A stretch of DNA of 64,000 nt from Paeniglutamicibacter terrestris (GTDB lineage: Bacteria; Actinomycetota; Actinomycetes; Actinomycetales; Micrococcaceae), in the NCBI RefSeq assembly GCF_012271785.1, contig NZ_JAAWVT010000005.1, forward strand, positions 186,001 to 250,000. Direction: 5' to 3'. The position numbers and the translations under genes are program-made. The notes under the pieces are model-generated. The model saw nothing but the letters and a program-made list of their open reading frames with translations. It had not been told where the DNA came from and searched no databases. Shown one piece after another: positions 13,158-64,000 of this stretch; within the stretch, counting starts at the first letter, position 1, and each line of letters begins with the position of its first letter.

Positions 13158-13174
13158 CGCAACACTCATCGATG

Positions 13175-13194: not shown

Positions 13195-13254
13195 TAGAAT
13201 GATGAGGCCTGGCCCGGCCGGTCCGGCTAGCCAAATGTACAGGGAGTACCAATC

Positions 13255-14727: not shown

Positions 14728-14774
14728 CCTACTACTTTATTTTCGATCCCCAGTCTGAGTGAGAAAGCGATCCC

Positions 14775-15755: not shown

Positions 15756-15779
15756 AGAGCGCTCTGGCAACACCCCTGA

Positions 15780-15824
15780 GCGAGGGCCCTGCTGTTTCCA
15801 CTTTGGAAGCGGTGGGGCCCTCGC
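15780..15824. terminator. Terminator hairpin after prs
   Basis: GCGAGGGCCC (15780-15789) pairs with GGGCCCTCGC (15815-15824). The loop itself contains TTTCCA/TGGAA-type pairing. There is no long T-run, only CGTTAAT. It sits 25 nt after the prs stop. Confidence 0.65.
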
Positions 15825-15880
15825 CGTTAATCGGTACGAATCTTGAGCGCAGCATCCAGAATTTCTCTCCTGTGCCCTCA

Positions 15881-16056
15881 TACTGCTAAAATATTTACTT
15901 GTGCCCAGGCGAGGGAACCTCACAAAAATGAGGTTCCGTTATCGACGAGGCTAGAAACGCACTACGCGTCCTTCTCCTGAGAGGGAATCGGATGATGTTG
16001 CTTCTAGGCCCGAGCGGGGCAGGAACCAATTAATCATCTTCCTCAAGGAGAACACC
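15881..16056 (+). promoter_or_regulatory. rplY promoter and long structured leader
   Basis: An extended -10 (TGCTAAAAT, 15884-15892) implies transcription from about 15899, leaving a leader of about 155 nt before rplY. The leader starts with a perfect 9-bp hairpin GGAACCTCA/TGAGGTTCC (15914-15922 and 15929-15937) with a CAAAAA loop. A second stem brings CGAGGCTAGAA (15946-15956) against TTCTAGGCCCG (16002-16012), 9 of 11 paired. AAGGAG precedes the ATG. Such a leader could sense L25 or stress, but regulation is inferred only from structure. Confidence 0.45.
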
Positions 16057-44548: not shown

Positions 44549-44768
44549 CTAAAGAAATTAGGCGGCGGTCCATACCAAAGGACAGTCAACATTGAGCAAT
44601 GTTACGCAGGAGCCGTCAAATCGACGCAAAAGGGCGGTTTCTGTGACGAGTTCCATAGCCAAGCCCGCCGGTGTTAAGCTGGGCCTTCAACCACTCTGTG
44701 AAGTTTATCAATCACCTAACTTCGTAGCTGGCAAGCAGCTGTCGGTGCAACGCGAAATGGGGTAGCGG

Positions 44769-47351: not shown

Positions 47352-47829
47352 TTCCGCCCGGACGTGGCTGTTCTCCGGAATAGATGAGATTCGGGCGGTC
47401 AGCACCGCTGGGCTGGGGATTGGATTTCCACCATGGTGCGACTCGGAATAATCCCCCCACGCATCGATGCAGCCCCCAAGCATTGCATCCATACCGTCAT
47501 CCGAACAGTCCGGCGTCTGGCGCCTTCGTACATGAAGTGGAGTTATCCGCTGAACTGGATCGTGGTCGCTTCAACGTAATTCGTGGTGACAATCCAAACT
47601 ATTGCATGTTTTTCGTTGTGGTAATCAGGGGATTAGGTGGATTCACCCTCGCGTTCACCCTCTGTGCGGGGCATCTGCAAAGCGTCCACTGTTCAGTATT
47701 AAAGCTGTTGAAGAAAATGCGTCAACATCGGGGGGAATGTTGCGCGACGAGCTGTGCTCCGTGGTGATCTGTGTACCGGGGGCTGGGTCCCGATTGGTTC
47801 GGGACCCAGCCTTCGATGTTAATGCGCGA
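47352..47829. other. Intergenic region with terminator, no gene seen
   Basis: This 478-nt space lies between the LuxR-type gene and the stop of the DUF885 gene. A perfect 12-bp hairpin, GGCTGGGTCCCG (47781-47792) and CGGGACCCAGCC (47800-47811), lies 19 nt before the DUF885 stop and probably ends both transcripts. Positions 47570-47640 are A/T-rich. The only open frame (47384-47767 plus) shows no credible protein. Confidence 0.6.
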
Positions 47830-49497: not shown

Positions 49498-49732
49498 AAC
49501 TCCAACCCTAGCCGACGTGAAATAGATGTTGAAGGAAATTTCGTGATGGATTCGATGCCCGACGTGGTGAGGAACCCTCGAGTGCGACCTCGAAACGGGG
49601 CATGGGGAGAACTCACCATGGCAGGAGTTTGACCATCCTTTGTAGACTGGTGGGGTTCGACCCTTCCGCGGTGGGGCATCGCAGCCTGCGAATCCGGCTG
49701 ATTCGTGAAATCACAGCAAGGAATGACCGCAC

Positions 49733-52700
49733 ATGGCAAAGACCAGTCGAGCCCGGTGGACAGCACCGTTGAAGGGCACCGCTTTTAAAGCGGTGGTCAT
49801 TCCGGTGGTCGCCGCACTCGCCGTGGCTGGTGCCATCATCCACCCGGGATTCGAAACCGCGGACGTGGAATTGAACGACGGCGGCGTCTGGGTCACCAAC
49901 CAGGCCGAGGGCAAGATCGGGCACATCAACTACCAGTCGCGCGTCATCGACGGCGGCGTGGTCACGCCGCTGCCGCGCTACGACCTGGCCCAGCATGCCG
50001 AACGGGTCTTTGTCCGCAACCTCGAACAGGCCTCACTGACCACCATCGACCCCGCCATGGTCCAATTCGCGGGTGACAATAACCTGCCCGCCAACTCATC
50101 CTTCTCCTTCGGCACCTCCGTCGTGGCGGTCACCGACGACGAGCACGGCACCGTGCAGGCCACCCGCGCGGAGAACATTTCGGAATTCTCCGGTGAGGGT
50201 GCCTTGCCGATCATCGAGTCCAACGGCGAGGTCGCCGCGGTGGTCGGGGCCGATGACACCGTATGGACCGTCGACTACCAATCAGGGGTGCTCGCCGCCC
50301 ACACCATCGACGCCGAGGGCACCGCGCAGCCGCTCAGCGAGATCACCATCGAGGAATTGACCTCGATGGACAAGCCGCAGCTCAGCGCCGTCGGGGCGAC
50401 CGGCGTGGTGTTTGATGCGGCTTCCGGCGACGTCTACACCTCCACCGGCGGGCATACCACTGTGGAGAACCCGACGAACGCCAAGATCCAGGCCCCCGGT
50501 CCTGGAGCACCGGGCGTGGCGATTGCCCTGGATAACGCGCTGGCCACGGTGTCGCTGGACGGGCGCGATGTGAACTACGAGCAGGTTGATACCGCCGGAA
50601 CCCCCATCGAACCGGTACGCGTGGGTACCTGCACCTATGCCGCCTGGCAGACCAGCGCCCAGTATCTGCGCCACTGCGCGGACCCCGCGCAGAACCAGAA
50701 CATGCCCATCCCCGAAATGCCTCAGGGATCCGAGCTGAAATTCCGGGTCAACCGTGACGTGGTGGTGCTCAACGACATCTCCACCGGACAGGTCTGGCTG
50801 ATGAACGAGGGCATGGAGATCGTCAGCAACTGGAGCGATCTGGAACCGCCCAAGGGTGAGGGTGAGGCGAAGGAGGAAGAGACCAAGGAGATCACCGACG
50901 CCATCGAGCTGCCCAACCGCACCGAGAAAAACGAAAAACCGATCGCCGAGGACGACACCTTCGCAGTACGCCCCGGTCGGGCCACGCTGCTGCCGGTGCT
51001 CTACAACGATGTGGACCCCGATGGGGATCTGCTGCTGGCCGAGCTGGAAGGCGGCGGACCATCTTTGGGTGAGCTGCAGTCGGTGCATGACGGGACCGGC
51101 TTCCAGATCGTAGTTCCCAAGGACGCCAGCGGCACCGCACGATTCAGTTACACCGCCGCCGATGGGCGCGGTGGTACCGACACCGCAACCGTCAACCTCA
51201 AGGTCGTGGACGAAGACAGCAACGAGGCCCCGGAGCAGCAGCGCACCACCGTCCTGCAGGTCCGCCAGGGCGAATCGGCCAGCCGCAACCTGCTAACCGA
51301 CTGGACCGATGCCGAGGGTGATGACCTGCGCCTGCTCGGCGGTACCAGCGAGGGCGACGACGTCATCCGGGTTCGCCCCGACGGCACCCTGACCTTCCAG
51401 GACGATGGCAAACGCATCGGGCAGAAGGAAGTCACGATCCAAGTTTCCGATGGTCGCGAAAGCACCAAGGGCCGCGTGCTTGTCGAGGTGCTGGCCGACA
51501 CCGCCATCAAGCCGGTCACCGCGACCGATCACGTTCTCGCCCGCGTGGATGAGGCAACCAGCTTCGAACCCTTGCTCAACGATGTTGACCCCTCCGGGGG
51601 AGGGCTGCGTCTGGCCGGGGTGGACGACGTGTCCGGGCTTGAACTGAAGACCAACACGGAGACCGGTGCCGTCACCGTCACCGGAGATCGCCCCGGGACC
51701 TTCTACGCCGAGTACCTGGCCACCAACGGACCGGCCAGCGCACCGGGCTTGGTGCGCATCGATATTAAGGCGCCCGAGCCGAGCGACGCAGCCCCGGTCG
51801 CGGTGCGCGACATGGCGCTGCTGCCCTCCGGACAGGACGTGTTAGTTGACGTGCTGGGCAACGACTCCGACCCGGCCGGCGGCGTGCTGGTGGTCACCGG
51901 CGTGGAAAATAACCAAGAGGCTCCGTTCTCCACCAGCGTCGAACGCAATGCCCTGGTGCGCATCACCGACGTGCGCGGGCTGACCGACCCGACCACCATC
52001 AGCTACACCATCTCCAACGGTGCGACGGAAGCCACCGGCGAGATCCGAGTCGTGCCGATCCCCGCCCCGCCGCGCCTCGACCCGCCGCAGGCCAACCCGG
52101 ATTCGGTGACGGTACGCGCAGGCGACGTCGCGACGGTGAAGGTGCTGGAGAATGACATCCACCCCAACGGCGGCAAGCTAGAGCTGGCCCCGGAACTTCA
52201 GGAGACCGAGGACCTCGGTGAGGGTTCACTGATCTCCGTCGCCGATTCCACGGTGCGCTTCCGCGCCGGGGACTTCGAGGGTAAACCGCGCCAGGTCTCC
52301 GCCGTATATACCGTCGCCGGGCCCGATGGCCAGGAGGCCAGCGCGAGTGTGACCTTCGATGTGCAGCCAGCGGCCGACGCGAACGACCTGGAGAAGAACA
52401 CCCCGCCGAACCCGTTGCCGGTTCAGGGCCGGGTCTTCGCCGGCAGCAGCACCAGCGTGCAGGTGCCGCTGGATGCCATCGACCCCGACGGCGACTCGGT
52501 GTCGCTGGTCCAGTTCGGATCTTCGCCCCGCTTCGGGACGGCAAAAATTCGTGGCTCGGCCATCGACTACACCGCCAACAAGGATGCCTCGGGCACCGAC
52601 GAATTCAGCTACATCGTGGAAGACCGGCTCGGCGCCCGTTCCACCGCCACCGTGAAGATTGGCATCGCTCCGCTCTCGGAGGCCAACAATCCGCCGGTGG

Positions 52701-55700
52701 CGGTGAACGACTTCATTACCGTGCGCCCCGAACGGCCCGTGGCCGTGGACGTGATGGACAACGACACCGATCCGGACGGCGACGCCCTGGCACTGCTCAG
52801 CGAGGTGGGCTCCGAGTCCTCGGTCAAGGCCGAGGTCATCGACGGGCGCGTGGTGCTCAGCTCCCCGCCGCAGAACGGCACCATCTCTGTTCGTTACCGC
52901 ATCAGCGATGGGCGCGGCGGCACCGCCAGCGCCACCCTCACGGTCAAATCGGATCCCGAGGCTCGTCTGCTGGCCCCGATCGCCCGCGATGATCGCGTCT
53001 CGCTCGAGGAAGTCATCGAGAACGACGAAGTCACCGTCGACATCCTGCGCAACGACGAAGACCCCGACGGCAGTAGCGCTGACCTTGAGGTCAGCCTGCC
53101 CGATGAGCCGGCGGGTGTGGACATGGGCGAAAAGGGCCTCACCGTGCGCGTCGGCGCCGAACCCCAGGTCATCGCCTACAGACTCACCGACCCGGACTCT
53201 CTCACGTCAAATGCCTTTGTGCACGTGCCGGGTACCGGCGGAGCTCGCCCGATCCTGCGCAGCGGTCTGGCCCTCGAGGTCGAGGCCGGCCAGCTGCTGC
53301 CGCTGAAACTGCAGGATCTGGTGCTGGTGCGTGAGGGGCACAAACCCAGGTTAACCACCGAGGACGCCGTGAGCTCGATGCCGGCGAACGATGGCAACCT
53401 GGTCGTCTCCGCCACCGAGCTCTCCTTCCGGGCACCGAAGGACTTCTCCGGACCGGCAGCCGTGACCTTCGAGGTCACCGACGGGTCCGGCCCCGATGAC
53501 TCCACGGGGCTGTCTTCCACGCTGAGTGTGCCGATCAACGTTAATCCGGCCCCGGGCAATGACCCGAACGAGCAGCGCGAGGGCCAGGGGCCCGAGGACG
53601 AACCCGAGGAAGAAGAGGTGGAGGAGGAAGAACAGCCGGATCCGGAAAACTTCCCGCCGACCCTCCAGGCCAATGCCCTAACTGTTGGCCAGGGTGGGGA
53701 ACCGGCCGAGCTGGACCTGCGCATGGCCGCCAATGATGCGAACGAGGAGGATTTGCCCAAGCTCGCCTTCGCCCTCGGCGCGGTCGATATCCAGGGTGTG
53801 AGTGCAGAAATCGTTGACGGGCATACGCTGCGCGTTAGCGCGGCGGCCGACACCCCCAAGGGCACCCGCGGCACCGTGGCGATCTCGGTGAACGACGGGG
53901 TTAACCCGCCGACCACAGCCGCCATGGGCATCACCGTCACTGGCTCCACCCGGGAGCTGCCGGTCGCCGTCGCTGACAACATCGCCGACGCGGCCCAGGG
54001 TCGCACCGAGTCCGTCGACGTGCTGACCAACGATCACAACCCGTACGCCGATCAGGGGCCGCTGCGGCTGATCAACGCGCGCCCGCTGGATCGCGCCCAG
54101 GGTACCGTAGCGCTGCGCGGGGATAAGGTGGACATCACTCCGAGTGAGAACTTCGTGGGCACCATGCGGGTGGAATACACCATCGGAGATGTCACCGATG
54201 ATGTCTCGCGCAATGTCATCGGCACCGTGACGCTGAACGTCAAGGGTGCCCCGAGTCCACCCTCGCTGCCCCGCGTGGAATCCACCGGCGATGAAAAAGC
54301 GGTGCTGACCTGGGGACCACCGGCGAATAACGGTTCGCCGATCACCCACTACACGGTCACCGGTGGCGGGCACGTGCAAAAGTGCGCAACAACCACCTGC
54401 ACCATCACGCCCCTGACCAACGACACCATCTACAACTTCACCGTGACCGCCACCAACGCGGTGGGCGAATCGCCGGCCTCCCCGGCCTCCGCCGACGTCC
54501 GCCCGGACGTGGAACCCGAACAGCCCGGTGCCCCCACCGGGAAGGACGGAGACCAACAGGCCACCTTCAGCTGGAAGGCACCGGTGAGCCGCGGTTCGGC
54601 GATCCAGGGCTACACCCTGGAAATCTCCCCGGCCCCGGCCAACGGCATCACCCAGGTCTCCGGGATCACCGGCACCTCCTACACCTGGGCGGGGCTGAAA
54701 AACGGCACCGCCTACCAAACGCGGGTGCGCGCGGTGAACAAGGCGGCCAAGCCTTCACAGTTCAGCGCCTACTCCGCCTCCGTCACCCCGGCCGGTAAGC
54801 CCTTCGCCCCGAACGCTCCCACCGCGGTGCGCCAGGAATCGGCGATCGACGGAGGCGTCGTGGACGTGTCCTGGCGTGCCCCGGGTGCCAACGGCGCAGC
54901 GTTGAGCGGTTACACCGTGCGGGTCTACGAAGCCGCGACGCTGGTCAAAACCGTCTCCGGTATCCCGGCCAGCCGGCAGCGGCAGGCCGTTACCGGGCTG
55001 GGAACCGGTAAGTCCTATCGCTTCACGGTGCAGGCCAGCAACCGCGTTGGTGCCTCCGATCAGAGTCAGCGTTCCACCGCTGTCACCCCGTACGGACGCC
55101 CGAAGGCCATCGGCGCGCTCACTGCGCAGGCCACCGGAACCGATCGCATGGTCAGGCTCGACTTCACGGCGCCCGGCGCGAACGGCGCGCCGGTCACCGG
55201 CTACCAGTACTCCACCGACGGCGGAGCCTGGACGCCCTTCGGCGGCCCCGGCGGCACCATCGACACCGGAGCCAACGGTCAGGCCCACACCTGGCAGGTG
55301 CGCGCGCTGAACGCGGCCGGCCCGGCATCCCCGAGCCCGGCCAGCAACCAGATGAGCGCCTACGGTCCGTTGCGCGATAACGCGCAGATCGCCGCCACGC
55401 ACGGGGACCACTGGATCAAATTCACTTGGAACGCCGCCGCCGGTGAGGCCAACGGGCGCACGCTCACCCACACTGTCACCGTCGATGGCAACAACACCGC
55501 CAACGACGGGGCCGAACGCCTGGAGAACCTGGGTTACTCCACCGCGCGAACGCTGAAGATCACCGCCAGCGACGCCGAGGGTCAATCCAAATCCTGGTCG
55601 AAGACCGAGCAGACCAACTCGAAGCCGGCGCGATCGGTGCAGCTGAGCCGTGGCCCGAACTACAACGGGTATCCCAACTCGACCTGCGCCCCAGACTGCT

Positions 55701-55921
55701 ACAAGTACCACGTGGAGCTCTACGACTTTGACCCTGGGACCCACACCTACGAGGCCACCTGTTACCACTCCGGCGGGAACTTCGCCTCCAACCCGGTGAC
55801 GATTGACGTTGGGCCCAAGGGCCGAGCCTCGGCGGACCTGCCCTGTGTGGTGGAACCCGGATACAAGTCGCCCTACTACGCCACGGTTGATGGCGTGGAA
55901 TCGAATACCACCGGATTCTGA
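49733..55921 (+). CDS. Giant membrane-anchored surface protein with Ig/cadherin-like and FN3 repeats
   Basis: The 2062-residue product has a basic N-terminus, one membrane anchor (residues about 18-38, VVIPVVAALAVAGAIIHPG) and no cleavage motif. Residues about 45-370 look like a beta-propeller (ADDTVWTVDYQSGVLAAHTI). From about 425 to 1435 come about ten repeats with the loop N-D-x-D-P-D-G-D (NDVDPDGD, NDTDPDGD, NDEDPDGS and variants), typical of Ca-binding Ig/cadherin-like domains; one acidic linker (EEEEVEEEEQPDPE) lies near 1300. Four to five fibronectin III domains follow (about 1505-1900) and a Cys-containing C-terminal domain (four Cys in about 1970-2050). It heads the MoxR operon, 49 nt upstream, and is probably its client. 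Confidence 0.9.
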   Translation: MAKTSRARWTAPLKGTAFKAVVIPVVAALAVAGAIIHPGFETADVELNDGGVWVTNQAEGKIGHINYQSRVIDGGVVTPLPRYDLAQHAERVFVRNLEQASLTTIDPAMVQFAGDNNLPANSSFSFGTSVVAVTDDEHGTVQATRAENISEFSGEGALPIIESNGEVAAVVGADDTVWTVDYQSGVLAAHTIDAEGTAQPLSEITIEELTSMDKPQLSAVGATGVVFDAASGDVYTSTGGHTTVENPTNAKIQAPGPGAPGVAIALDNALATVSLDGRDVNYEQVDTAGTPIEPVRVGTCTYAAWQTSAQYLRHCADPAQNQNMPIPEMPQGSELKFRVNRDVVVLNDISTGQVWLMNEGMEIVSNWSDLEPPKGEGEAKEEETKEITDAIELPNRTEKNEKPIAEDDTFAVRPGRATLLPVLYNDVDPDGDLLLAELEGGGPSLGELQSVHDGTGFQIVVPKDASGTARFSYTAADGRGGTDTATVNLKVVDEDSNEAPEQQRTTVLQVRQGESASRNLLTDWTDAEGDDLRLLGGTSEGDDVIRVRPDGTLTFQDDGKRIGQKEVTIQVSDGRESTKGRVLVEVLADTAIKPVTATDHVLARVDEATSFEPLLNDVDPSGGGLRLAGVDDVSGLELKTNTETGAVTVTGDRPGTFYAEYLATNGPASAPGLVRIDIKAPEPSDAAPVAVRDMALLPSGQDVLVDVLGNDSDPAGGVLVVTGVENNQEAPFSTSVERNALVRITDVRGLTDPTTISYTISNGATEATGEIRVVPIPAPPRLDPPQANPDSVTVRAGDVATVKVLENDIHPNGGKLELAPELQETEDLGEGSLISVADSTVRFRAGDFEGKPRQVSAVYTVAGPDGQEASASVTFDVQPAADANDLEKNTPPNPLPVQGRVFAGSSTSVQVPLDAIDPDGDSVSLVQFGSSPRFGTAKIRGSAIDYTANKDASGTDEFSYIVEDRLGARSTATVKIGIAPLSEANNPPVAVNDFITVRPERPVAVDVMDNDTDPDGDALALLSEVGSESSVKAEVIDGRVVLSSPPQNGTISVRYRISDGRGGTASATLTVKSDPEARLLAPIARDDRVSLEEVIENDEVTVDILRNDEDPDGSSADLEVSLPDEPAGVDMGEKGLTVRVGAEPQVIAYRLTDPDSLTSNAFVHVPGTGGARPILRSGLALEVEAGQLLPLKLQDLVLVREGHKPRLTTEDAVSSMPANDGNLVVSATELSFRAPKDFSGPAAVTFEVTDGSGPDDSTGLSSTLSVPINVNPAPGNDPNEQREGQGPEDEPEEEEVEEEEQPDPENFPPTLQANALTVGQGGEPAELDLRMAANDANEEDLPKLAFALGAVDIQGVSAEIVDGHTLRVSAAADTPKGTRGTVAISVNDGVNPPTTAAMGITVTGSTRELPVAVADNIADAAQGRTESVDVLTNDHNPYADQGPLRLINARPLDRAQGTVALRGDKVDITPSENFVGTMRVEYTIGDVTDDVSRNVIGTVTLNVKGAPSPPSLPRVESTGDEKAVLTWGPPANNGSPITHYTVTGGGHVQKCATTTCTITPLTNDTIYNFTVTATNAVGESPASPASADVRPDVEPEQPGAPTGKDGDQQATFSWKAPVSRGSAIQGYTLEISPAPANGITQVSGITGTSYTWAGLKNGTAYQTRVRAVNKAAKPSQFSAYSASVTPAGKPFAPNAPTAVRQESAIDGGVVDVSWRAPGANGAALSGYTVRVYEAATLVKTVSGIPASRQRQAVTGLGTGKSYRFTVQASNRVGASDQSQRSTAVTPYGRPKAIGALTAQATGTDRMVRLDFTAPGANGAPVTGYQYSTDGGAWTPFGGPGGTIDTGANGQAHTWQVRALNAAGPASPSPASNQMSAYGPLRDNAQIAATHGDHWIKFTWNAAAGEANGRTLTHTVTVDGNNTANDGAERLENLGYSTARTLKITASDAEGQSKSWSKTEQTNSKPARSVQLSRGPNYNGYPNSTCAPDCYKYHVELYDFDPGTHTYEATCYHSGGNFASNPVTIDVGPKGRASADLPCVVEPGYKSPYYATVDGVESNTTGF

Positions 55922-55970
55922 CGCCGTCATCGGTGCAAAAACTTACGACGAGAAACAGGAGTCACATTTA

Positions 55971-57272
55971 ATGACGATGACCAACGAGCAGGCCAGCTGG
56001 TTCGCCGACACCTTCGCCAAGTTGGTGGCCAACGTGGGCATCTCCGTGCTCGGCAAGGACGAGGTGGTGCGCATGGTGCTCACCGCACTGCTGGCCGAGG
56101 GCCACGTGTTGTTGGAGGACGCGCCCGGGACCGGCAAAACGATGCTGGCCCGCTCGCTCTCGGCCACCGTACAGGGGACCAACTCGCGCATTCAGTTCAC
56201 CCCCGATCTGCTGCCCTCGGACGTCACCGGTATCACCATCTACGACCAGAAGACCCAGGCGTTCGAGTTTCACCGCGGTCCGATCTTCGCCAACCTGGTG
56301 TTGGCCGATGAGATTAACCGCGCCTCCCCGAAGACCCAGTCGGCACTGCTGGAGGTCATGGAGGAGAGCCGGGTGACGGTCGATGGGACCACCTACGCGC
56401 AGGCGCGCCCGTTCATGGTCATTGCCACGCAGAACCCGATCGAGCAGGCCGGCACCTACCGGCTGCCAGAGGCGCAGCTGGACCGCTTCCTGATCAAGAC
56501 CTCCATCGGCTACCCGGACCGCGCCGCGACCGTCGAACTGCTCGCCGGCAGTTCGCAGCGTGACCGCTCGACCTCGGTGAGCGCCATCATCACCACCGAG
56601 GCCGTCGCCGACATGGCCGATCTGGCCGCCACCACCCACGTGGACCGGGGTGTGCTGGAGTACGTGGCGCAACTCTGCGAGGCCACCCGCGATGCGTCCG
56701 AGACCCGATTGGGTGTTTCGGTGCGTGGGGCGCTGGCGATGGTGCGCGCCGCGAAGATCTGGGCTGCCACCGAGGGTCGGAACTATGTGCTGCCCGATGA
56801 CATCAAGGCGCTGGCCGCTGCGGTGTGGACGCACCGCCTGGTGCTAGACCCGGAAGCTGAATTCACCGGGGCCAGTGCCGAAGCAGTGATCGCCGATGTG
56901 CTGCGCACCGTGCCGGCACCGACCGGTCACGGCGGCAACGGCTCGGGCAGCGGCGCCAGCGGCGCTAACGGCACCAACGTCGGCAGCGTCGACTCCAGCG
57001 GCAATGGTGCGAACGGCGCCACCGGTGCCAGCGACCCCGCCGGCCATGGCGCCAACGGCGCCAACAACAATGGCGCCAGCGCTACGCGCAGCGGCCTGCG
57101 TGGCTTCCGCGCCCGCCGCGACAACAGTGCCAATGGCACTAACGGCAACGGCAGCGGCAGCGGCACCGGCGGCAACGGCACCGCCGCCGGCACCGAGGCG
57201 CCGTCGGCCGACGTCGATGCGGCAGAGGCCGACGAATCCACGGTGCTGCGCCGGGACGTGGGCGGGGCATGA
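55971..57272 (+). CDS. MoxR-type AAA+ ATPase with long low-complexity tail
   Basis: The 433-residue product (ATG at 55971 with AGGAG 9 nt upstream; the open frame extends to 55803 over the previous gene) shows Walker A APGTGKT (residues 51-57), Walker B LVLADEINRA, sensor IATQNPIEQAGTYRLPEAQLDRF and the C-terminal AAA lid. The normal MoxR protein ends near residue 315. Here about 110 residues of Gly, Asn, Ser, Ala and Thr follow (GHGGNGSGSGASGANGTN, later with RGLRGFRARRD), ending in an acidic stretch. MoxR ATPases act as chaperones with DUF58/VWA partners. Translation is coupled to the next gene (ATGA). Confidence 0.93.
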   Translation: MTMTNEQASWFADTFAKLVANVGISVLGKDEVVRMVLTALLAEGHVLLEDAPGTGKTMLARSLSATVQGTNSRIQFTPDLLPSDVTGITIYDQKTQAFEFHRGPIFANLVLADEINRASPKTQSALLEVMEESRVTVDGTTYAQARPFMVIATQNPIEQAGTYRLPEAQLDRFLIKTSIGYPDRAATVELLAGSSQRDRSTSVSAIITTEAVADMADLAATTHVDRGVLEYVAQLCEATRDASETRLGVSVRGALAMVRAAKIWAATEGRNYVLPDDIKALAAAVWTHRLVLDPEAEFTGASAEAVIADVLRTVPAPTGHGGNGSGSGASGANGTNVGSVDSSGNGANGATGASDPAGHGANGANNNGASATRSGLRGFRARRDNSANGTNGNGSGSGTGGNGTAAGTEAPSADVDAAEADESTVLRRDVGGA

Positions 57273-58624
57273 GCAGACGGCCCACCGGCGCCGGAAGCCG
57301 CGCCTCCACCCGGGCAGCGGCGCGCAGCACCGCGCGAGCGCTGAAGGCCACCGCGGACAAATCGGCGGGTTTGCTCTCCGAGGCCACGGCGCTGCTCCGC
57401 GAGGCACTTGACCCGCTACTGGTGCGCTGCCGCACGCTGTTCGCGAAGTACCTGGCCCCGGCCGGACGCGTCGTCTCTCCGCTGGGCTTTGTCGTCGCCG
57501 GGACCGCCGCGCTGCTCTGGCTGCTCGGGGTCGTGTTCGGGTGGCAGGAAGCCCTGCTCGGGGCGTTTATGGCAACACTGCTGCTACTGGTGGCGGTGGG
57601 CTTCATCATCGGCCGGTCCGATTTCCGCATCACCCTGGAGCTTAATCGCACCCGGGTGGCGGTAGGGGACCGCGCGGTCGGTGCCATGGAGGTGCTTAAC
57701 CCCACGGCCCGCACCTCGTTGACGACGCTGATGGAACTGTCCGTGGGCGCCGCGGTGGCGACCTTCCGCGTGCCGCGGCTGGGCCCCGGGGAGCAGCATG
57801 AGGACCTGTTCACCATCCCCACCCGCCGCCGGGCCGTGCTGAGTGTTGGTCCGGTGCGTTCGGTGCGCCAAGACCCCTTTGGACTGCTGCGCCGCCAGGT
57901 CCGCTGGACCGAGCGCTACGAGTTGTTTGTCCACCCCAAGACCACCGCGCTGCACGGCTCCTCCGCCGGTTTCATCCGCGATCTGGAGGGCATGACCACC
58001 CGCGATCTGTCCAATTCCGATGTCTCCTTTCACGCGCTGCGTGGTTACGTCGCGGGAGATGACCGCCGGCACATCCACTGGAAGTCCTCCGCGCGCACCA
58101 GCGAGCTGATGGTGCGCCAGTTCGAGGAGACCCGGCGCTCCCACCTGGCCATCGCGCTCTCGGCGAACCTCGGCGAATACGGGGACCCGGCCACGGGGCC
58201 CGATGACTTTGAGTTGGCGCTCTCCGCCGCGGCCTCCATCGGCCTGCAGGCCGTCACCGACCAGCGCAAGCTCTCGGTGCTGGCGCAGACCGGGCCGGTG
58301 CGCACCGACACCGGACGGAACATGCTCGATTCGCTGACCCGGCTGCAGGCACGCACGCTGCCCCGCCACGACGTCGCGGACCTGGTCCGCACCACCATCG
58401 AGACGGTGCCCGGGGCCTCGGTGGTCTTCATCCTCACCGGTGCCACCACCACCGCCCGGCAATTGCGCGAGGCGTCGATGCACGTGCCCTTCGGGGTGCG
58501 CGCCATCGCCATCCGCGCCGGGCACGGGCTGCGCGCCACCCGCGCCGACATCGGCGAATTAACGGTTTTGAGTCTGGGCAGCCTCGACGAGCTCGCTCTG
58601 CTGCTGCGCAGGGCAGCAGCATGA
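57269..58624 (+). CDS. DUF58 domain protein, MoxR partner
   Basis: The 451-residue product has a basic Ala/Arg-rich N-terminus (about 30 residues), two closely spaced membrane segments near residues 70-115 (GFVVAGTAALLWLLGVVFG and GAFMATLLLLVAVGFIIG) and the DUF58 core: GYVAGDDRRHIHWKSSARTSELMVRQFEE, then a VWA-like fold with ELALSAAASIGLQAV. DUF58 proteins are standard neighbours of MoxR ATPases. The start overlaps the MoxR stop and the stop overlaps the transglutaminase-like gene start (ATGA on both sides). Confidence 0.94.
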   Translation: MSRRPTGAGSRASTRAAARSTARALKATADKSAGLLSEATALLREALDPLLVRCRTLFAKYLAPAGRVVSPLGFVVAGTAALLWLLGVVFGWQEALLGAFMATLLLLVAVGFIIGRSDFRITLELNRTRVAVGDRAVGAMEVLNPTARTSLTTLMELSVGAAVATFRVPRLGPGEQHEDLFTIPTRRRAVLSVGPVRSVRQDPFGLLRRQVRWTERYELFVHPKTTALHGSSAGFIRDLEGMTTRDLSNSDVSFHALRGYVAGDDRRHIHWKSSARTSELMVRQFEETRRSHLAIALSANLGEYGDPATGPDDFELALSAAASIGLQAVTDQRKLSVLAQTGPVRTDTGRNMLDSLTRLQARTLPRHDVADLVRTTIETVPGASVVFILTGATTTARQLREASMHVPFGVRAIAIRAGHGLRATRADIGELTVLSLGSLDELALLLRRAAA

Positions 58625-61101
58625 GCGCGCTCAGCGGTACGAGCACCCTGAAGTCCAAATTGCCGATGTGGCGCTACGGGCTGGACGCCGCTTGTCTGGG
58701 CCTGGCCCTCTTTCTGGGCGCGCTGGGCCTGGCCGACGCGTACGGCACCAGCGCCCACTTCCTGCTGGCCAGCCTCGGCGGCATCATCGCCGGACTGGCT
58801 CTGGCCTGGGCACACGTGTATTTCCGGCTGCAGGCCTTCAAAACGATGGCGCTGTTCGCCGGGCTCTACCTGCTGTTGGGCACCGTCCTGGCCACCCCGC
58901 GCGAGGCGCTCTTCGGGTTCATCCCGACCTTCGAATCGCTGCGGGTGCTGCTGGCCGGGGTGGTGTTCTCCTGGAAGGATATGCTCACCGTTGCGGCGCC
59001 CGTGGGCTCCTACGGCGGGGTGCTGATTGTCGCGTTCGCCTCCACCTTGCTCACCGGGCTGCTGGCCGGACTCACCGCGTGGCGGCTGCGCGCGCCGTAC
59101 TGGACACTGCTGCCGCTGCTGGCCATGTTTGTTGTCGGGATCGCCTTCGGCACCCGCGACGTGCCGCTGCCGGTGCTGCGCGGTGGAGCGTTTATGGCGG
59201 TGCTGGTCGGCTGGCTGGCCTGGCGCCGTTACATCGGCAGCCTGGTTGCCGACGGCTTCCGCTCGCTGAACCACGCCGAGGAGGATGTGCGCGGGGTGCG
59301 CGACGGGTTGATCCGGCGGGTGGCCGTTGGCGCCGTGGTGCTGCTGGCAGCCAGCGGCATCACAGCCGCCGCGGCCCCGCTCATTAGCCCGTCGACCCCG
59401 CGGCAGGTGCTCCGCGATGCCGTCGAGCCCCCGGTTGATCTCTATACCTACCCCAGTCCGCTGACCAACTTCCGCAAATACACCAAAACCATGGCCGAGC
59501 AGACCCTGCTCACCGTCACGGGCCTGCCCGAGGGCGAACGCGTGCGGTTGGCAGCGCTGGATTCCTACAACGGGATGGTGTTTAACGTTGACCCGAAGTC
59601 CGGGGGCAACTTCGCCCCGGTGGGTGACTCCGCGGACATTCGCGGCTCCGAATCGTCGGCAGCGCGCACCGCCGGGGAACTGGAGATCGGCATCGGCGAC
59701 TATGCCGGGGTGTGGCTGCCCGGTGGTGGCCGGCTCGCCGGAGTGCGCGTCGAGGATCAGGGCCGCGAGCAACTGGCTCGTTCACTGTTCTATTCCGATG
59801 AGGCGGAAACCGCGCTGAGCTCAATCGGGTTGCAACGCGGGGATAGCTACACCGCGGCGGTGCAATTCCCCGTGCGGGCGACCGATGCGGAACTGGAAAA
59901 AGCCGACTTTGCGCAGCTGCGCATGCCGGAGTTGGCCAACGTGCCGCCGGTGGCAGCGGCCAAGTCGGTCCAATACGTCGGCTCCGCGCGCACCGCGTTG
60001 GAGCGGGCGCGCAGTCTGGAATCCGCGCTGAAGACCAGCGGGTTCCTCTCCAGCGGCTCCGAGGGGCAGGTGCCATCCCTCTCCGGACACGGAGCCGGGC
60101 GCATCACCAGCCTGCTCGAGGCGGAGGACCCGATCGGCGACGACGAGCAGTACGCGGTCGCGATGGCGCTGATGGCCCGCGAACAGGGCATGCCCGCCCG
60201 CGTGGTCATGGGCTTCTACCCGGAAAAATACAACCCTGCCGCGGCCGTGGAGCTGAAGGGTACCGACGTGCACGCCTGGGTTGAGATCGCCTTCGAGTCG
60301 ATCGGGTGGGTGACCTTCGACCCGAGCCCGGACGACGACGAGCAGCCCACCCCGCCGGAGCAGGAACCCCGCGCGGTGCCGCAGCCGCAGGTGCTCCAGC
60401 CGCCACCGCCCGAGCAGCAGGACGCCGAGCTGCCGCCGGAGACCGCACCGGAGCCGCAGGAGGTCCAGCAGGAGGAACCGGGCTTCTGGGAAACCTGGGG
60501 CGCGCTGGTCATCGGCGTCGGCATCGGCCTCGGTTCTCTGTTGCTGCTTGCCTCTCCATTCCTGCTGATCCTGTGGCTCAAGCTCCGGCGTCGCCGGCGC
60601 CGTGCCACCGTGGGCAGCACCGGGGCGCGGATCAGCGCCGGCTGGCAGGAAGTACTTAGCCAGGGCACCGACTACGGGATCATCGCCCGCGGCGGGGTCA
60701 CCCGCCGGGAGCATGCCGGCACCCTGGCCGCCGGCTTCCCCACGCTCGGTACGCTCCCGCTGGAGCTGGCCGCGCGGGCAGATCAAGCCACGTTCTCCAC
60801 CGGCGTTATGGGCGAGGACGAGGCGGATCGCTACTGGCGCGACGTTGAAGCCCAGTCGGCGAAGATGGGTGCGGCGACGAGCTTCTGGCGTCGCCAACGG
60901 GCCAGATTCTCCGTCCGTTCGCTGCTGCATGACTGGTTGGGAGCGATCTCCGCGCGCGGGGCGGGAACCGGCGCCGGGCCGCTGGGCGTGCGACTGGGCG
61001 GGCGACTGGGCGGGCGACTGGGCGGGCCGCTGGTTCGGCGTCGTTCTGGTGCACGGCCGCGCACCCTCGGTAAGGTACACGCAATGGAAACGAAGGAGTA
61101 A
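58621..61101 (+). CDS. Transglutaminase-like (TgpA-type) membrane protein, catalytic Cys replaced by Asp
   Basis: The 826-residue protein has about six membrane segments up to residue ~250, a periplasmic transglutaminase-like domain (about 480-580), a Pro/Glu/Gln-rich linker (about 575-620), one further membrane segment (GIGLGSLLLLASPFLLILWL) and a cytoplasmic tail rich in Arg and Gly (RLGGRLGGRLGG) near the end. The His and Asp of the usual triad are present (H551 in DVHAWVEI; D567 in WVTFDPSP), but where the catalytic Cys is expected (CxQxxA context) the sequence is GDDEQYA, Asp at 508. It may be non-catalytic. It sits between DUF58 and RDD-FHA genes with ATGA overlap and a 3-nt gap. Confidence 0.9.
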   Translation: MSALSGTSTLKSKLPMWRYGLDAACLGLALFLGALGLADAYGTSAHFLLASLGGIIAGLALAWAHVYFRLQAFKTMALFAGLYLLLGTVLATPREALFGFIPTFESLRVLLAGVVFSWKDMLTVAAPVGSYGGVLIVAFASTLLTGLLAGLTAWRLRAPYWTLLPLLAMFVVGIAFGTRDVPLPVLRGGAFMAVLVGWLAWRRYIGSLVADGFRSLNHAEEDVRGVRDGLIRRVAVGAVVLLAASGITAAAAPLISPSTPRQVLRDAVEPPVDLYTYPSPLTNFRKYTKTMAEQTLLTVTGLPEGERVRLAALDSYNGMVFNVDPKSGGNFAPVGDSADIRGSESSAARTAGELEIGIGDYAGVWLPGGGRLAGVRVEDQGREQLARSLFYSDEAETALSSIGLQRGDSYTAAVQFPVRATDAELEKADFAQLRMPELANVPPVAAAKSVQYVGSARTALERARSLESALKTSGFLSSGSEGQVPSLSGHGAGRITSLLEAEDPIGDDEQYAVAMALMAREQGMPARVVMGFYPEKYNPAAAVELKGTDVHAWVEIAFESIGWVTFDPSPDDDEQPTPPEQEPRAVPQPQVLQPPPPEQQDAELPPETAPEPQEVQQEEPGFWETWGALVIGVGIGLGSLLLLASPFLLILWLKLRRRRRRATVGSTGARISAGWQEVLSQGTDYGIIARGGVTRREHAGTLAAGFPTLGTLPLELAARADQATFSTGVMGEDEADRYWRDVEAQSAKMGAATSFWRRQRARFSVRSLLHDWLGAISARGAGTGAGPLGVRLGGRLGGRLGGPLVRRRSGARPRTLGKVHAMETKE

Positions 61102-61104
61102 CCG

Positions 61105-62241
61105 GTGGCCGGAACCATGAATACGGTTGATGCCTCGGCAGGAAAACGACTCGGCGCGTGGTTGTTAGATACCGCCCCGCTCGCGATCCTGTCTGCCATT
61201 TTCCTTTCGGTGCTCGGACCGCAGCTGCTCCAGGAATCGATCACACCGGGGACCCCGATGCAGGTCGCGCTGAGCGGCGCGCTGTTTACCCTGCTGACTC
61301 TGGGATACACGGGGTTCCTCTGGTGGTGGGAGGCGAGCGCGGGCAAGACCCTCGGGAACGTTTTGCTGAAGTTGCGCACCACCGCCATGGACGGGACCGT
61401 GCCCGGTTGGACCCCGGTGATCCAGCGTCGGTTGCTCATCGTCTTGGCCGGGATCGTCCCCATTGCCGGCCCGGTGCTGGTGGTGGTCTCCAACCTGTTC
61501 GACCCGCAGGACAAGCGCCAGGGCTGGCATGACAAGGCCGCCGGCACGCTGGTGCTGGACATCGATGCCGGATATGACCCGCTGGGCACCGGCGGGCTCG
61601 CCGGCCAGCAGGCCTTTGCCCCCTCCGCGGATCCGGCCGCATCGGACACCGCATCCGGGGCACCAGCGCAGAGTTTTCCGCGCAGCAACGGGGTCATTAC
61701 CTCGGTGCCCGGCGCGTCGCATGCGCCGGGCACCGGAGCCGGAGCGACACCAGGGCACTCTCCGGAAGCCGCGCCGGAAGCCGCGCCGGAACCGATTTTC
61801 GATGCCGATGCCGCTCCCACCGCCGCTCCCACCGCCACTCCCGTGCCCGAGGCCCACCCGGACGATGCCTTCACCCACACCCGCCTGCGCGTGGAAACGC
61901 GCACCGTCACCCGCCTGATCTTCGACGACGGGCAGGTCCACGAGCTGGAACACAGCCTGTTGATCGGCAGGAACCCGTCCGCCGCCTCCGACGTGGATGA
62001 CACGGATGACACGGAACTCTTGCGGCTCGGCGACGGTGGCCGTTCGGTGTCCAAGACCCACCTACTGGTCCAACCCAGCAGCTCCGGCATCTGGGTCACC
62101 GATCGCAACTCCACCAACGGATCCCGGGTCATCGATGCCGCCGGCACCGAGCGCGACCTGCTGCCCGGCCAGCCGAGCCCCGCCGCGGCGGGGGACACGG
62201 TCTACCTGGGCGAACGCCACTTCACGGTGGAGCGCACATGA
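61105..62241 (+). CDS. RDD membrane protein fused to FHA domain
   Basis: The GTG at 61105 follows GAAGGAG. Residues 8-150 are an RDD domain (KRLGAWLLDTAPLAILSAIF; later WWEASAGKTLGNVLLKLRTT), with three membrane segments. An Ala/Pro/Thr/Asp-rich linker spans about 160-260. The C-terminal FHA domain (about 268-378) has LLIGRNP, VSKTHLLVQ and DRNSTNGSRV, the residues that read phosphothreonine. The product could thus link phosphorylation by a Ser/Thr kinase to the membrane complex. The stop overlaps the phosphatase start by 4 nt. Confidence 0.92.
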   Translation: MAGTMNTVDASAGKRLGAWLLDTAPLAILSAIFLSVLGPQLLQESITPGTPMQVALSGALFTLLTLGYTGFLWWWEASAGKTLGNVLLKLRTTAMDGTVPGWTPVIQRRLLIVLAGIVPIAGPVLVVVSNLFDPQDKRQGWHDKAAGTLVLDIDAGYDPLGTGGLAGQQAFAPSADPAASDTASGAPAQSFPRSNGVITSVPGASHAPGTGAGATPGHSPEAAPEAAPEPIFDADAAPTAAPTATPVPEAHPDDAFTHTRLRVETRTVTRLIFDDGQVHELEHSLLIGRNPSAASDVDDTDDTELLRLGDGGRSVSKTHLLVQPSSSGIWVTDRNSTNGSRVIDAAGTERDLLPGQPSPAAAGDTVYLGERHFTVERT

Positions 62242-63092
62242 ACCGGGAGACAGAAGGCATCGAGGTGAGCATCCGCCACGGTCAGGGTACGGACCGCGGG
62301 CTCAAACGCGAGATCAACGAGGATTCGTTATTCGTCTCCGATGGACTCTTCGCGGTTGCCGACGGAATGGGTGGTCACGCGGCCGGCGAGGTGGCCAGCC
62401 ACCTCTGCGTCGAGACACTGGCTACTGGCTACCGCAAGGCCGCCGGTCGGCTGGACGCCGAGGCGATCAACACACTGCTGCGCACCGCCGGCGAGGCCAT
62501 TGCCGCCAGTGCGCCCCGCGGGGCGGGCACCACCGTCAGCGGCGCAGCAGTCATCAAGCGGGACTCGTCCCTACACTGGCTGGTGTTTAACGTCGGAGAC
62601 TCGCGCACCTACCGGCTTTCCAACGGCCTGCTGGAGCAGGTCACCGTCGACCATTCCGAGGTGCAGCAATTGGTCGAACGCGGCGTCATCGGCACCGAGC
62701 AGATGGCCACCCATCCGCGCCGGCACGTCATTACCCGCGCGCTGAGCGCCGGCGGCGACAGCCGCGTGGACTTCTGGCTGCTGCCGATCCAGCCCGGTGA
62801 CCGCCTGCTGATCTGCTCCGACGGGCTGAGCACCGAGCTCGCGGATGAGTCGTTGCGCGATATCATCACCAGGTTTCCCGATCCGCAGCAGGCCGCCGAC
62901 GAGCTCATCGCCGCGGCTCTGAGTCGGGGTGGGCGCGATAACATCTCAGTGGTCATCGTCGATGCGGTGGGCCGGGACGTCGAGGAGATGATCGACACCG
63001 TGCCACGCTCGATCAGGCCGGCCAAAAACTCGAAAACTCAGTCGATCGCCGTTGTCAGCGGTGCAATGACTCCAATGGAGGAACAATCATGA
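62238..63092 (+). CDS. PP2C-type Ser/Thr protein phosphatase
   Basis: The 284-residue enzyme has the PP2C metal-binding motifs in order: RGLKREINEDSLFVSDGLFAVADGMGGHAAGEVAS, then VFNVGDSRTYRL, LLICSDGLST, and GGRDNISVVIVD with the last metal Asp. No membrane segment is present, so it is cytoplasmic. It follows an FHA protein and would reverse the phosphorylation that FHA reads. A kinase is expected nearby but is not in the window. ATGA overlaps occur at both ends. Confidence 0.95.
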   Translation: MNRETEGIEVSIRHGQGTDRGLKREINEDSLFVSDGLFAVADGMGGHAAGEVASHLCVETLATGYRKAAGRLDAEAINTLLRTAGEAIAASAPRGAGTTVSGAAVIKRDSSLHWLVFNVGDSRTYRLSNGLLEQVTVDHSEVQQLVERGVIGTEQMATHPRRHVITRALSAGGDSRVDFWLLPIQPGDRLLICSDGLSTELADESLRDIITRFPDPQQAADELIAAALSRGGRDNISVVIVDAVGRDVEEMIDTVPRSIRPAKNSKTQSIAVVSGAMTPMEEQS

Positions 63093-64000
63093 ACGCACTG
63101 CGCTACCTTCCCGGTGACTGGTTCGCCCTGGTCAGCCCCCAACACGTCATCTTGTTGCCCGGCACCACCGCCGTGACGGAGGTGTCCGCGCTCTGGGAAC
63201 GGCTTCACGACGCGGCCACCGTCGAGTCGCTGCTCACCGAGATCCTTACCGCAGCCCAGATGAAGATCAGCTCGATGCCGCCCTTCGCGATTGTGTCGCG
63301 CGATGCCGCACCGCACGTCGTGGTGCGCGGCGAGGTCAGCGTCGCCACCAACAACGGCTCTGAGCAGGCCCGTGGCCGCGACGTGGCCACCTGGCTGGAG
63401 CGCCGATTCGGCCCCGCCGATCAGTGGGACGTGAGCGTCGGAGCCGCGGACGAAGGCCACTGGTTGCCCATCGCCGAAGGCATCGTGCGGGTCTCCGGGC
63501 TGCGCCAAGGAGGTGACCCCGAAGGAATGACACCCCGGAGCGATGCATCAATCGTCGCCGAAGCCGATGCCGATGCCGATGCCGATGCCGATGCTCAAGC
63601 TGCGACCGACACGGCCACGGCAACCCCGGCCACGGTGGCTCCGCCATCCTCGGCAACCCCGACCACGGTGGCTCCGGCAACCCCGACCACGGCGTCAATC
63701 GAGGCCGACGTCGAAACCAGAACCGATGCTGAACCTGAGGCGGCCACGGAGCATCCGGCCACCGGTATGGAGCCCACAGCTGTAGGTGTGGAAACCGAAA
63801 CCAAGATCGACGCCGCACCGGAAAAGGTCGAACTCGCCACCGCTGCGGAAGCAGAAACTGCAGCGGAAGTGAAAACTGAACCGGCCACGGAAGCACGCGC
63901 AACCGCCGAGCCGGACACTCAGGAAACGGCGGGGCAGCTGCCGGAGGACAACACGGAAATCAAGCCTGATCACGGCGGAGATTCGCTGGACCGGTCACAA
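63089..64000 (+). CDS. Unknown protein, N-terminal domain plus Ala/Asp/Thr/Glu-rich region; cut by window end
   Basis: The ATG at 63089 overlaps the phosphatase stop (ATGA). The frame is open to the end of the window. Residues 1-150 are folded (MNALRYLPGDWFALVSPQHV, then TVESLLTEILTAAQMKISSM and GRDVATWLERRFGP), of no family I can name; in related genomes the protein after PP2C often ends in FHA or zinc-ribbon domains. From residue 155 composition is Ala, Thr, Glu, Asp and Pro, including a run of five Ala-Asp pairs. It is probably part of the same regulated system. Confidence 0.75.
   Translation, partial: MNALRYLPGDWFALVSPQHVILLPGTTAVTEVSALWERLHDAATVESLLTEILTAAQMKISSMPPFAIVSRDAAPHVVVRGEVSVATNNGSEQARGRDVATWLERRFGPADQWDVSVGAADEGHWLPIAEGIVRVSGLRQGGDPEGMTPRSDASIVAEADADADADADAQAATDTATATPATVAPPSSATPTTVAPATPTTASIEADVETRTDAEPEAATEHPATGMEPTAVGVETETKIDAAPEKVELATAAEAETAAEVKTEPATEARATAEPDTQETAGQLPEDNTEIKPDHGGDSLDRSQ
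63563..63592 (+). repeat. Hexanucleotide repeat (GCCGAT)x5 in the last gene
   Basis: Five perfect tandem copies of GCCGAT encode Ala-Asp repeats in the low-complexity region. Changes in number keep the frame, so strains may differ in length here. Confidence 0.9.

Follow-up and report, generated by a model that had tools for sequence, protein, structure and literature searches.

A PFNA-type operon with a predicted propeller-bearing giant protein and a cysteine-less transglutaminase-like protein in Paeniglutamicibacter terrestris and its relatives

The PFNA operon of Bifidobacterium, studied so far as a host-immunity-sensing device of these bacteria, has the gene order pkb2-fn3-aaa-atp-duf58-tgm, to which some species add prpC, fha and a hypothetical gene. 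In print this operon is called species-specific, and according to one article no orthologs of its genes could be found in any other organism (PMC6803598). Its FN3 protein is described as membrane-bound and about 2000 residues long, its Tgm as transglutaminase-like and presumably a cysteine protease, and the B. longum operon is reported to be co-transcribed. The B. longum kinase Pkb2 was reported to phosphorylate the operon's MoxR, for which a possible involvement in FN3 folding was proposed (PMC8430577), and a fragment of the B. longum FN3 protein was reported to bind TNF-alpha, with a further report on adhesion (PMC10688814, PMC12607495). We found no description in the literature of this gene set beyond gut bifidobacteria.

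The operon and its giant protein

The stretch of DNA analysed here (the window, 64,000 nucleotides from Paeniglutamicibacter terrestris, an actinobacterial relative of Kocuria and Arthrobacter) contains a single predicted plus-strand operon with the order giant surface protein, moxR, DUF58, tgm, RDD/FHA, PP2C, FHA and Ser/Thr kinase, the kinase lying past the window edge. It represents a variant form of the PFNA operon known from print, the two having in common the core order fn3-moxR-duf58-tgm on one strand as well as kinase, PP2C and FHA companions; however, the PFNA kinase gene stands first whereas that of the window's family stands last, and in this family the first FHA domain is carried by an RDD membrane protein and a second FHA protein is present. 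The original prediction of one operon with seven genes in the window agreed with our coordinates and Pfam matches, as did its count of five junctions out of six that are 4-nt overlaps or a 3-nt gap (giant-moxR +49 nt, then -4, -4, +3, -4 and -4). The gene it had left as another protein encodes a 646-aa FHA protein (63089..64000, running past the window edge to 65029 on the continued contig), and the Ser/Thr kinase that it proposed to seek beyond the right edge is there, a 533-aa protein at 65026-66627 in window numbering (L003:6027-7628; Pkinase 9e-38) whose gene overlaps the second FHA gene by 4 nt. The gap between the giant and moxR genes ranged from 41 to 263 nt (median 78) over 80 loci including the window. 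No Rfam families were found in 44000-64000, and a scan for Sigma-70 promoters was negative; neither this nor the terminator-like sites (9 in the operon where 7.3 were expected, 3 after the kinase where 0.8 were) served as evidence. Two ORFs past the kinase (L003:7640-8092 and 8108-8743) were judged spurious, having odd composition and no Pfam match.

The first gene (49733..55921) encodes the 2062-residue protein that had been described as a membrane-anchored Ig/FN3 giant, a description borne out by matches to Big_9 (7.8e-87), Cadherin_4/5 and fn3 (1.4e-34) and by one N-terminal hydrophobic helix in a hydropathy scan (residues 18-36, 49784..49840). The Big_9/cadherin-like repeats span approximately 50930..54172 (eight Big_9 stretches, the best at residues 985-1071) and the fibronectin type III repeats approximately 54245..55372 (three stretches, the best at 1508-1586), these limits being set by reading the sequence. 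A new point is that the protein is predicted to begin with the membrane helix followed by a beta-propeller (about residues 48-375, 49874..50857): an AlphaFold2 model of this module had a mean pLDDT of 82.6, and a Foldseek search with it gave mostly beta-propellers among the matches listed. The module is conserved across families (alignment A1); of 297 genomes from the host's order, 179 contained it, the host genome having a single match, that of the window. A profile of A1 also matched six giants of the family labelled f42 (3e-57 to 8e-65), which is only probably Bifidobacteriaceae.

Conservation of the operon in relatives

For gene order we used 80 named loci, the best 80 of 551 DUF58 stretches confirmed in a contig scan; judged by record titles, nearly all are from Micrococcaceae, largely Arthrobacter, Pseudarthrobacter, Paenarthrobacter and their kin, which are soil, plant or ice bacteria. 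The whole eight-gene order was kept in 72 of these 80, an arrangement that is thus more than chance; of the eight exceptions, six run into the end of the contig or locus. The check set beforehand as able to refute the original prediction was the absence of the giant next to moxR in relatives; in these loci, picked by DUF58, the two adjoin in 79 of 80, the remaining one being cut at its edge. The eight genes form one conserved unit, to which the kinase, the phosphatase and both FHA proteins belong.

Giant, DUF58 and Tgm occurred together in loci of 17 family labels. Where the giant was the sole criterion for choosing loci (L169-L197), the 26 giants of at least 1400 aa had Tgm just downstream in 26 cases, DUF58 in 26 and moxR in 25; for all 49 giants of the wider sample, part of which had been selected through DUF58, the figures were 48, 47 and 46. 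In L037 and L179 giant, DUF58 and Tgm are retained but about 19.5 kb of sequence contains no moxR, and in one locus (L034) the giant stands alone. In the six f42 loci (L169-L174), which probably belong to Bifidobacteriaceae, the genes run kinase-giant-moxR-duf58-tgm. Where a genome has more than one such operon, the paralogous operons diverge as units: across 14 operons in six genomes, distances between giants tracked those of Tgm (r 0.85), moxR (0.72) and DUF58 (0.63), correlations that were reached in 5, 3 and 3, respectively, of 2000 relabellings within genomes.

The transglutaminase-like protein and the acidic-T motif

The Tgm gene (58621..61101) encodes a TgpA-like membrane protein (TgpA_N and Transglut_core, the latter at 1.2e-16) that a public record annotates as a transglutaminase-domain protein, and that keeps the TgpA fold, its model (mean pLDDT 75.3, pTM 0.46) matching TgpA 6g4h in Foldseek at 2.7e-9. 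The catalytic cysteine, however, is absent: in a joint alignment of eight operon Tgm and twelve homologs of Tgm2, the host's other Tgm, Asp508 of the window protein (codon 60142..60144) falls in the column of the Tgm2 cysteine. This cysteine was found in none of 114 homologs and none of 28 further ones, in contrast to 30 of 30 homologs of Tgm2 (the loci returned out of 50 matching genomes), and the histidine is lost as well in the six f42 proteins, the A. oris form and several others. The operon protein, presented in the original prediction as transglutaminase-like, is thus very probably not an enzyme. As two loci with no giant in view (L062 and L068) also carry a cysteine-less Tgm, the presence of a giant is not a strict condition of the loss. 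In the nine genomes for which the places of both were listed (G000, G002, G230, G117, G094, G200, G213, G214 and G106) Tgm2 lies on another contig than, or at least 25 kb from, any listed giant. The missing cysteine is a sequence mark that separates the operon Tgm subfamily from the Tgm2 of ordinary MoxR triads.

A motif of the form acidic-T-R-V-R, or acidic-T-[RV]-[VLI]-R, recurs in the phosphorylation proteins; it was defined after the sequences were seen, and a first, wider pattern served for the MoxR counts before a second replaced it for kinases, FHA proteins and Tgm. All 75 operon kinases examined from the host's family had it, where shuffles (which ignore relatedness here and below) predicted 5.3, and so did one of 22 other kinases. 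The latter come from 40 listed kinase places, 30 of which came as loci; four were dropped, no ORF there matching the pattern used to recognise a kinase, and 26 were used (four operon kinases and 22 others). None of six f42 kinases has the motif, and it was not enriched in FHA proteins of other families (2/25, 1.6 expected). In Tgm of other families it was commoner than expected (15/56 against 7.1), and it is therefore not confined to signalling proteins. Thr259 (61879..61881) of a PDDxxxxTxxR motif lies immediately before the C-terminal FHA domain of the RDD protein (61105..62241; alignment A2, the window and three relatives). The PP2C-type phosphatase (62238..63092) has a Stp1/IreP-like NCBIfam match below its cut-off.

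The window MoxR, an AAA+ ATPase (55971..57272), ends in a low-complexity tail of 116 aa in which an acidic-T-V-L-R site (DESTVLRR, residues 421-428, 57231..57254) offers a candidate phospho-threonine, Thr424, near the C-terminus. PFNA-type f42 MoxRs instead have N-terminal tails with DATRL-type sites, and the tail carries the motif in four of six, the site of another (L174) sitting in the ATPase core. Tails with the motif thus occur in two lineages, at opposite ends of the protein; most MoxRs of these operons, judged by eye, have no tail. With the wider pattern four of the 80 named MoxRs had the motif, where shuffles gave 8.3 expected sites, and as a class MoxR is not enriched. The original prediction that FHA and PP2C signalling gates the chaperone is therefore upheld as to the signalling genes, which belong to the unit, but it meets the rarity of a motif-bearing MoxR tail. 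The motif names exact residues for studying a possible regulation of such a MoxR ATPase.

Proposed mechanism and likeness to known systems

We propose, at about even odds, that the proteins of this PFNA-type operon form an envelope complex, regulated by phosphorylation, for the display and control of the giant surface protein. One N-terminal helix would anchor the giant, with the propeller near the membrane and the long Ig/FN3 rod outside. Tgm would be a polytopic membrane pseudoenzyme, most likely serving the giant outside the cell as a docking or scaffold partner, and MoxR and the membrane-tethered DUF58 protein (57269..58624, two membrane helices) would engage the Tgm complex at its cytosolic face, so controlling its assembly or state. 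The kinase, with one membrane helix and a small outer tail by hydropathy, would have its catalytic domain in the cytosol and a small domain outside; its targets may be acidic-T-[RV]-[VLI]-R sites in its own sequence, in FHA proteins and, for some lineages, in the tails of MoxR, sites that FHA domains would read and PP2C would erase once phosphorylated. A bolder version, which we put forward tentatively and hold to be the less probable, is an envelope machine driven by the AAA+ ATPase and gated by phosphorylation, where an order-wide dead transglutaminase is the transmembrane coupler between MoxR/DUF58 inside and a giant held or released outside, with the recurrent phospho-motif linking kinase, FHA readers and MoxR at opposite ends in two lineages.

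Among the alternatives, the complex might work as an outside-in sensor, the giant or the outer domain of the kinase sensing a ligand or the state of the wall and MoxR, DUF58 and Tgm relaying this to the kinase-phosphatase pair. The layout of the kinase, the presence of kinase, phosphatase and FHA proteins in one operon and a propeller conserved across families would suit such a sensor; we nevertheless consider it unlikely, as it has no known ligand, no transcriptional regulator is found among the operon genes, and a multi-repeat rod fits adhesion or structure equally well. Somewhat more doubtful is the reading of the original prediction, that the giant is a direct folding client of a MoxR chaperone gated by phosphothreonine signalling, an idea already in print with Pkb2 and MoxR. 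It draws on that B. longum phosphorylation, on the giant-moxR adjacency in the named loci and on the sites in the window and f42 MoxR tails, but most operon MoxRs lack a tail and two loci keep the giant without moxR. Moreover, as MoxR has no membrane helix and is predicted to be cytosolic, while the giant past residue 36 should lie outside by hydropathy, direct folding is topologically unlikely and direct chaperoning would need an intermediary.

That the operon is a host-immunity device whose FN3 domains bind cytokines, as proposed for bifidobacterial PFNA on the B. longum TNF-alpha and adhesion reports, is very improbable for these loci, given the soil, plant and ice bacteria that make up most of the named set; in addition, one f42 giant (L170) has the published WSXPS motif and FN3 position, but its WSKPS corresponds by eye to ESPAS in the window giant. 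That Tgm is an active enzyme, cross-linking the giant as a transglutaminase or trimming it as a cysteine peptidase, might be suggested by the annotation, the printed presumption and the retained fold; with the cysteine and, in some forms, the histidine missing, this is very improbable and already contradicted by the sequences. An anti-phage defence role was also rejected, on PADLOC results in which the kinase matched many kinase models, PP2C and MoxR had one weak match each and the other five proteins had none.

Returning to the envelope complex, its conserved and wide spread suggests a cell-surface machine of long standing rather than a specialised device for gut immunity; as many genera of the order in which the cassette is widespread are environmental, the question moves to general envelope function. 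New relative to the bifidobacterial work are the predicted propeller of the giant, the cysteine-less Tgm, and the acidic-T-R-V-R mark of the host-family operon kinases and of MoxR tails in two lineages.

The MoxR Proper (MRP) triad of moxR, DUF58 and a TgpA transglutaminase comprises the same three families as the window operon. One such triad lies on the host's contig some 66 kb from the operon (L004) and differs in that its Tgm has the catalytic cysteine and it has no giant, since the only host match to the giant's module is that of the window and no ORF of the L004 locus is giant-sized. TgpA of Pseudomonas aeruginosa (PDB 6g49, 6g4h) has the same transglutaminase fold and the same layout of N-terminal helices and core domain, but, where the window Tgm has Asp, TgpA has the cysteine of a Cys-His-Asp triad reported to be intact, together with activity (PMC3507681). 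A propeller protein is also part of the MoxR-vWA-beta-propeller ternary systems (Kaur et al. 2020, PMC7159879), described as mostly from bacteroidetes, planctomycetes, verrucomicrobia and proteobacteria, and the window MoxR scored 49.7 bits against the bpMoxR model (cut-off 27). Neither the window genes nor the two genes that follow gave a Pfam vWA match at E 0.01, DUF58 being there instead, and here, in contrast to those systems, the propeller would form the base of a presumed extracellular rod.

Gene content and conservation of the operon

The original prediction had placed seven plus-strand genes in one operon, and all were found in the predicted order: those for an Ig/FN3 surface protein of 2062 residues (hereafter the giant; 49733-55921), MoxR (55971-57272), DUF58 (57269-58624), a TgpA-like transglutaminase-fold protein (Tgm; 58621-61101), RDD-FHA (61105-62241), PP2C (62238-63092) and, continuing past the window edge, a second FHA protein of 646 residues. 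The Ser/Thr kinase anticipated beyond the right edge is present in the contig extension, a 533-residue protein whose gene overlaps that of the 646-residue FHA protein by 4 nt; downstream of it are two short ORFs with no match in Pfam and next, on the opposite strand, a carboxyl transferase gene. As the upstream DUF885 gene (47830-49497) runs the other way, the giant is the first gene of the operon. Beyond this DUF885 gene lies an 860-residue protein with a C-terminal LuxR-type helix-turn-helix (44769-47351), and ~5-8 kb past the operon are a gene resembling adenylate cyclase and another ORF with weak similarity to PP2C (L003:13073-15580, in the extension).

Named genomes were searched for DUF58, which makes no selection for the giant; of 551 confirmed stretches the best 80 were used. 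Among these, the closest relatives of the window DUF58 were from Kocuria polaris (75% identity) and, at 72% each, Zhihengliuella salsuginis and Glutamicibacter sp. PS, so the host probably belongs to Micrococcaceae. A giant-type ORF, in some cases cut by the contig end, lies directly 5' of moxR in 79 of these 80 loci, which bears out the adjacency expected among relatives, and 41-263 nt (median 78) separate giant and moxR across 80 loci, the window's own among them. The remaining locus, L104, is a 4.4-kb contig starting at DUF58; its record is titled Vibrio cholerae 35D and its DUF58 and Tgm are typical of Micrococcaceae, so that it is probably a contaminant. The whole order from giant to kinase was found in 72 of the best 80 (three with split frames), the other eight being six loci that a contig or locus end truncates, L110, with RDD/FHA after the kinase, and L074, in which two overlapping frames swap listing order. 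At least 33 of the best 80 have another giant-like ORF immediately 5' of the first giant (upstream ends of L076-L149); most of these tandem paralogs are truncated at the locus edge.

In a wider sample of genomes hand-chosen to cover families and partly selected via DUF58 (L033-L069, L169-L197), giants of at least 1400 residues had nearly equally constant partners just downstream (tgm 48/49, duf58 47/49, moxR 46/49), and the 26 from loci selected by the giant alone (L169-L197) gave 26/26, 26/26 and 25/26, respectively. One miss was an orphan giant of 2030 residues with none of the three within 12 kb downstream (L034, G002:C11), and another, L035, was scored as lacking duf58 since the frame was too long for the distance limit, the gene nevertheless being present. 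Only MoxR was truly missing where the other two partners remain: in L037 (G138) and L179 (G211), DUF58 and then Tgm lie directly 3' of the giant, and tblastn for moxR found none in the 19.5-kb locus. For 11 shorter or cut propeller proteins, moxR was downstream in 5 and duf58 in 6. Propeller proteins of ~700-890 residues precede moxR-duf58-tgm in other families (L053, L054, L066, L067), which would fit either loss of the rod or a state before its acquisition.

The giant, DUF58 and Tgm occur together under 17 family labels, and a named, non-micrococcal record, an Actinomyces oris plasmid, carries an Ig-like giant, MoxR, DUF58, a 'transglutaminase' and RDD; genes for a kinase and FHA are close by on the opposite strand. 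Searches with the N-terminal module of the giant as a single query matched 20/197 genomes of the class, and a 27-row profile, whose weakest matches are shorter or different proteins, matched 179/297 genomes of the order and 23/296 of the phylum.

Because the species tree alone cannot pass a within-genome test, co-divergence was assessed in six genomes having two or three such operons (14 in all). Distances between giant N-terminal modules correlated with those of their own Tgm (r 0.851), MoxR (0.717) and DUF58 (0.630), and relabelling operons within genomes reached the observed r in 5, 3 and 3 of 2000 draws, respectively, which, with 576 labellings possible, is about the recurrence rate of the true labelling itself. 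Two genomes had three operons each, and between them the nearest relative of every gene lay in the corresponding operon; in the four with two operons, nearest relatives were consistent across genes only in part.

Cysteine loss in Tgm and predicted topology of the parts

The operon Tgm is very probably a catalytically dead transglutaminase. The active position of the window Tgm reads GDDEQYA (residues 506-512), and when 8 operon Tgm and 12 Tgm2 (the host's other Tgm and homologs) are aligned together, Asp508 lines up with the Tgm2 cysteine; the match to TgpA in the phmmer alignment starts one residue further on. Across 114 rows, including distant forms (the window and L033-L149), this column holds D 101, S 6, E 3, G 2, A 1, T 1 and C 0, and cysteine is likewise found in 0/28 further loci (L169-L197). 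The histidine is also gone in six loci of family f42, several others and A. oris. As controls, the host Tgm of a second triad ~66 kb away reads GYCVHFA, and both Cys and His occur in 30/30 Tgm2 homologs. This second MoxR-DUF58-Tgm triad, with its catalytic cysteine kept (L004:5087-9974, minus; C27:165086-169973), is divergent from TatD and from a transglycosylase/G5-domain gene that looks like Rpf; on contig C27 the window occupies bases 186001-250000. Since the Tgm of two moxR-duf58-tgm loci in which no giant is visible (L062, L068) also lacks the cysteine, its loss is a mark of the Tgm subfamily and not strictly of the giant.

The fold is kept, the top Foldseek matches being TgpA (6g4h, 6g49), for a model whose confidence is modest (mean pLDDT 75.3, pTM 0.46). 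TgpA itself is reported to have an intact triad and activity (PMC3507681), unlike the window Tgm with Asp508 in the cysteine column. Literature searches gave no earlier report of the cysteine loss among the matches listed, and a PFNA review describes Tgm as 'transglutaminase-like, presumably a cysteine protease' (PMC8430577).

By hydropathy, the giant has a single hydrophobic helix (residues 18-36), DUF58 has two membrane helices, Tgm eight plus one, RDD-FHA three and the kinase one, with none in MoxR, PP2C or the second FHA protein. An AlphaFold2 model of the giant N-terminus built on 38 sequences (383 residues overall, mean pLDDT 82.6, pTM 0.79) was mostly beta strands over residues 48-375, and its Foldseek matches in the PDB, among those listed, were mostly to proteins with beta-propellers: NirF, a YVTN surface-layer protein, cd1 nitrite reductase and BamB. 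In one f42 locus (L169, G333:C1, ORF 9313-15897, minus) giant and MoxR form a single 2194-residue frame with no intervening stop; as a GGAG-like sequence precedes an internal ATG, MoxR may be made there by internal initiation.

These helix counts would place MoxR inside, with the rod of the giant and the core domain of Tgm on the outside. The giant had been predicted to be a direct client of MoxR, which is possible but less likely given a rod outside and MoxR inside. For the same reason, the simplest mechanism would have MoxR and DUF58 working on Tgm, a membrane protein that would then hold or present the giant, while the kinase, PP2C and FHA proteins would set the state of the complex.

A candidate phospho-motif

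Reading the sequences suggested a motif, an acidic residue at most four places before T-[RV]-[VLI]-[RKS], for which the shuffled expectations ignore relatedness. In the named set (best 80 of 551) plus the window it was found in 75/75 operon kinases (shuffled mean 5.3, maximum 13), 21/77 FHA proteins (5.0, 11), 10/79 RDD-FHA (2.6, 7), 2/80 MoxR (4.6, 14), 8/81 DUF58 (7.0, 14), 10/81 Tgm (8.0, 16) and 1/77 PP2C (4.0, 9). The counts in other families were 16/45 for kinases (2.6 expected), 5/25 for RDD-FHA (1.2), 15/56 for Tgm (7.1) and 2/25 for FHA proteins (1.6), and f42 kinases had it in 0/6. A control set of kinases from outside the operon, taken from the host and five relatives, carried it in 1/22 (1.9 expected), and the operon kinases of the same comparison in 4/4.

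By eye, MoxR tails are absent in most families. An earlier pattern of the motif (4/80 MoxR vs 8.3 sites expected) was found in C-terminal tails of the window, Kocuria (L070), Zhihengliuella (L071) and Citricoccus (L080) proteins; f42 MoxRs have N-terminal tails, with the motif in 4/6 and near-misses in that of L174 (DDATRVG, EDSTRLG). In the RDD-FHA linker of the window and three close relatives, PDD....T..R is kept just before the FHA domain. By analogy with actinobacterial FHA switches, we infer that the motif may be phosphorylated by a kinase and then recognised by FHA domains.

Relation to the PFNA operon of Bifidobacterium

PFNA is described as the operon pkb2-fn3-aaa-atp-duf58-tgm of all Bifidobacterium species, some of which additionally have prpC, a hypothetical gene and fha (PMC6803598, PMC8430577). 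According to these sources, its genes are co-transcribed in B. longum GT15, its MoxR is phosphorylated by Pkb2, and folding of FN3 by MoxR has been suggested as a possibility. In the former source the authors state that PFNA orthologs were not found in other organisms, and a 2025 review draws a comparison between PFNA and the moxR locus of mycobacteria (PMC12067865). Among the matches listed, in a search with subscription journals mostly outside its scope, no paper extended PFNA to Micrococcaceae or Actinomycetaceae. The f42 loci (L169-L174) have the PFNA gene order, an fn3 match at 1505-1577 of a 2020-residue frame, compared with the published 1494-1581 of 1994 residues, and WSKPS compared with the published WSXPS, suggesting that they belong to Bifidobacteriaceae. 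The window operon is a PFNA-type variant.
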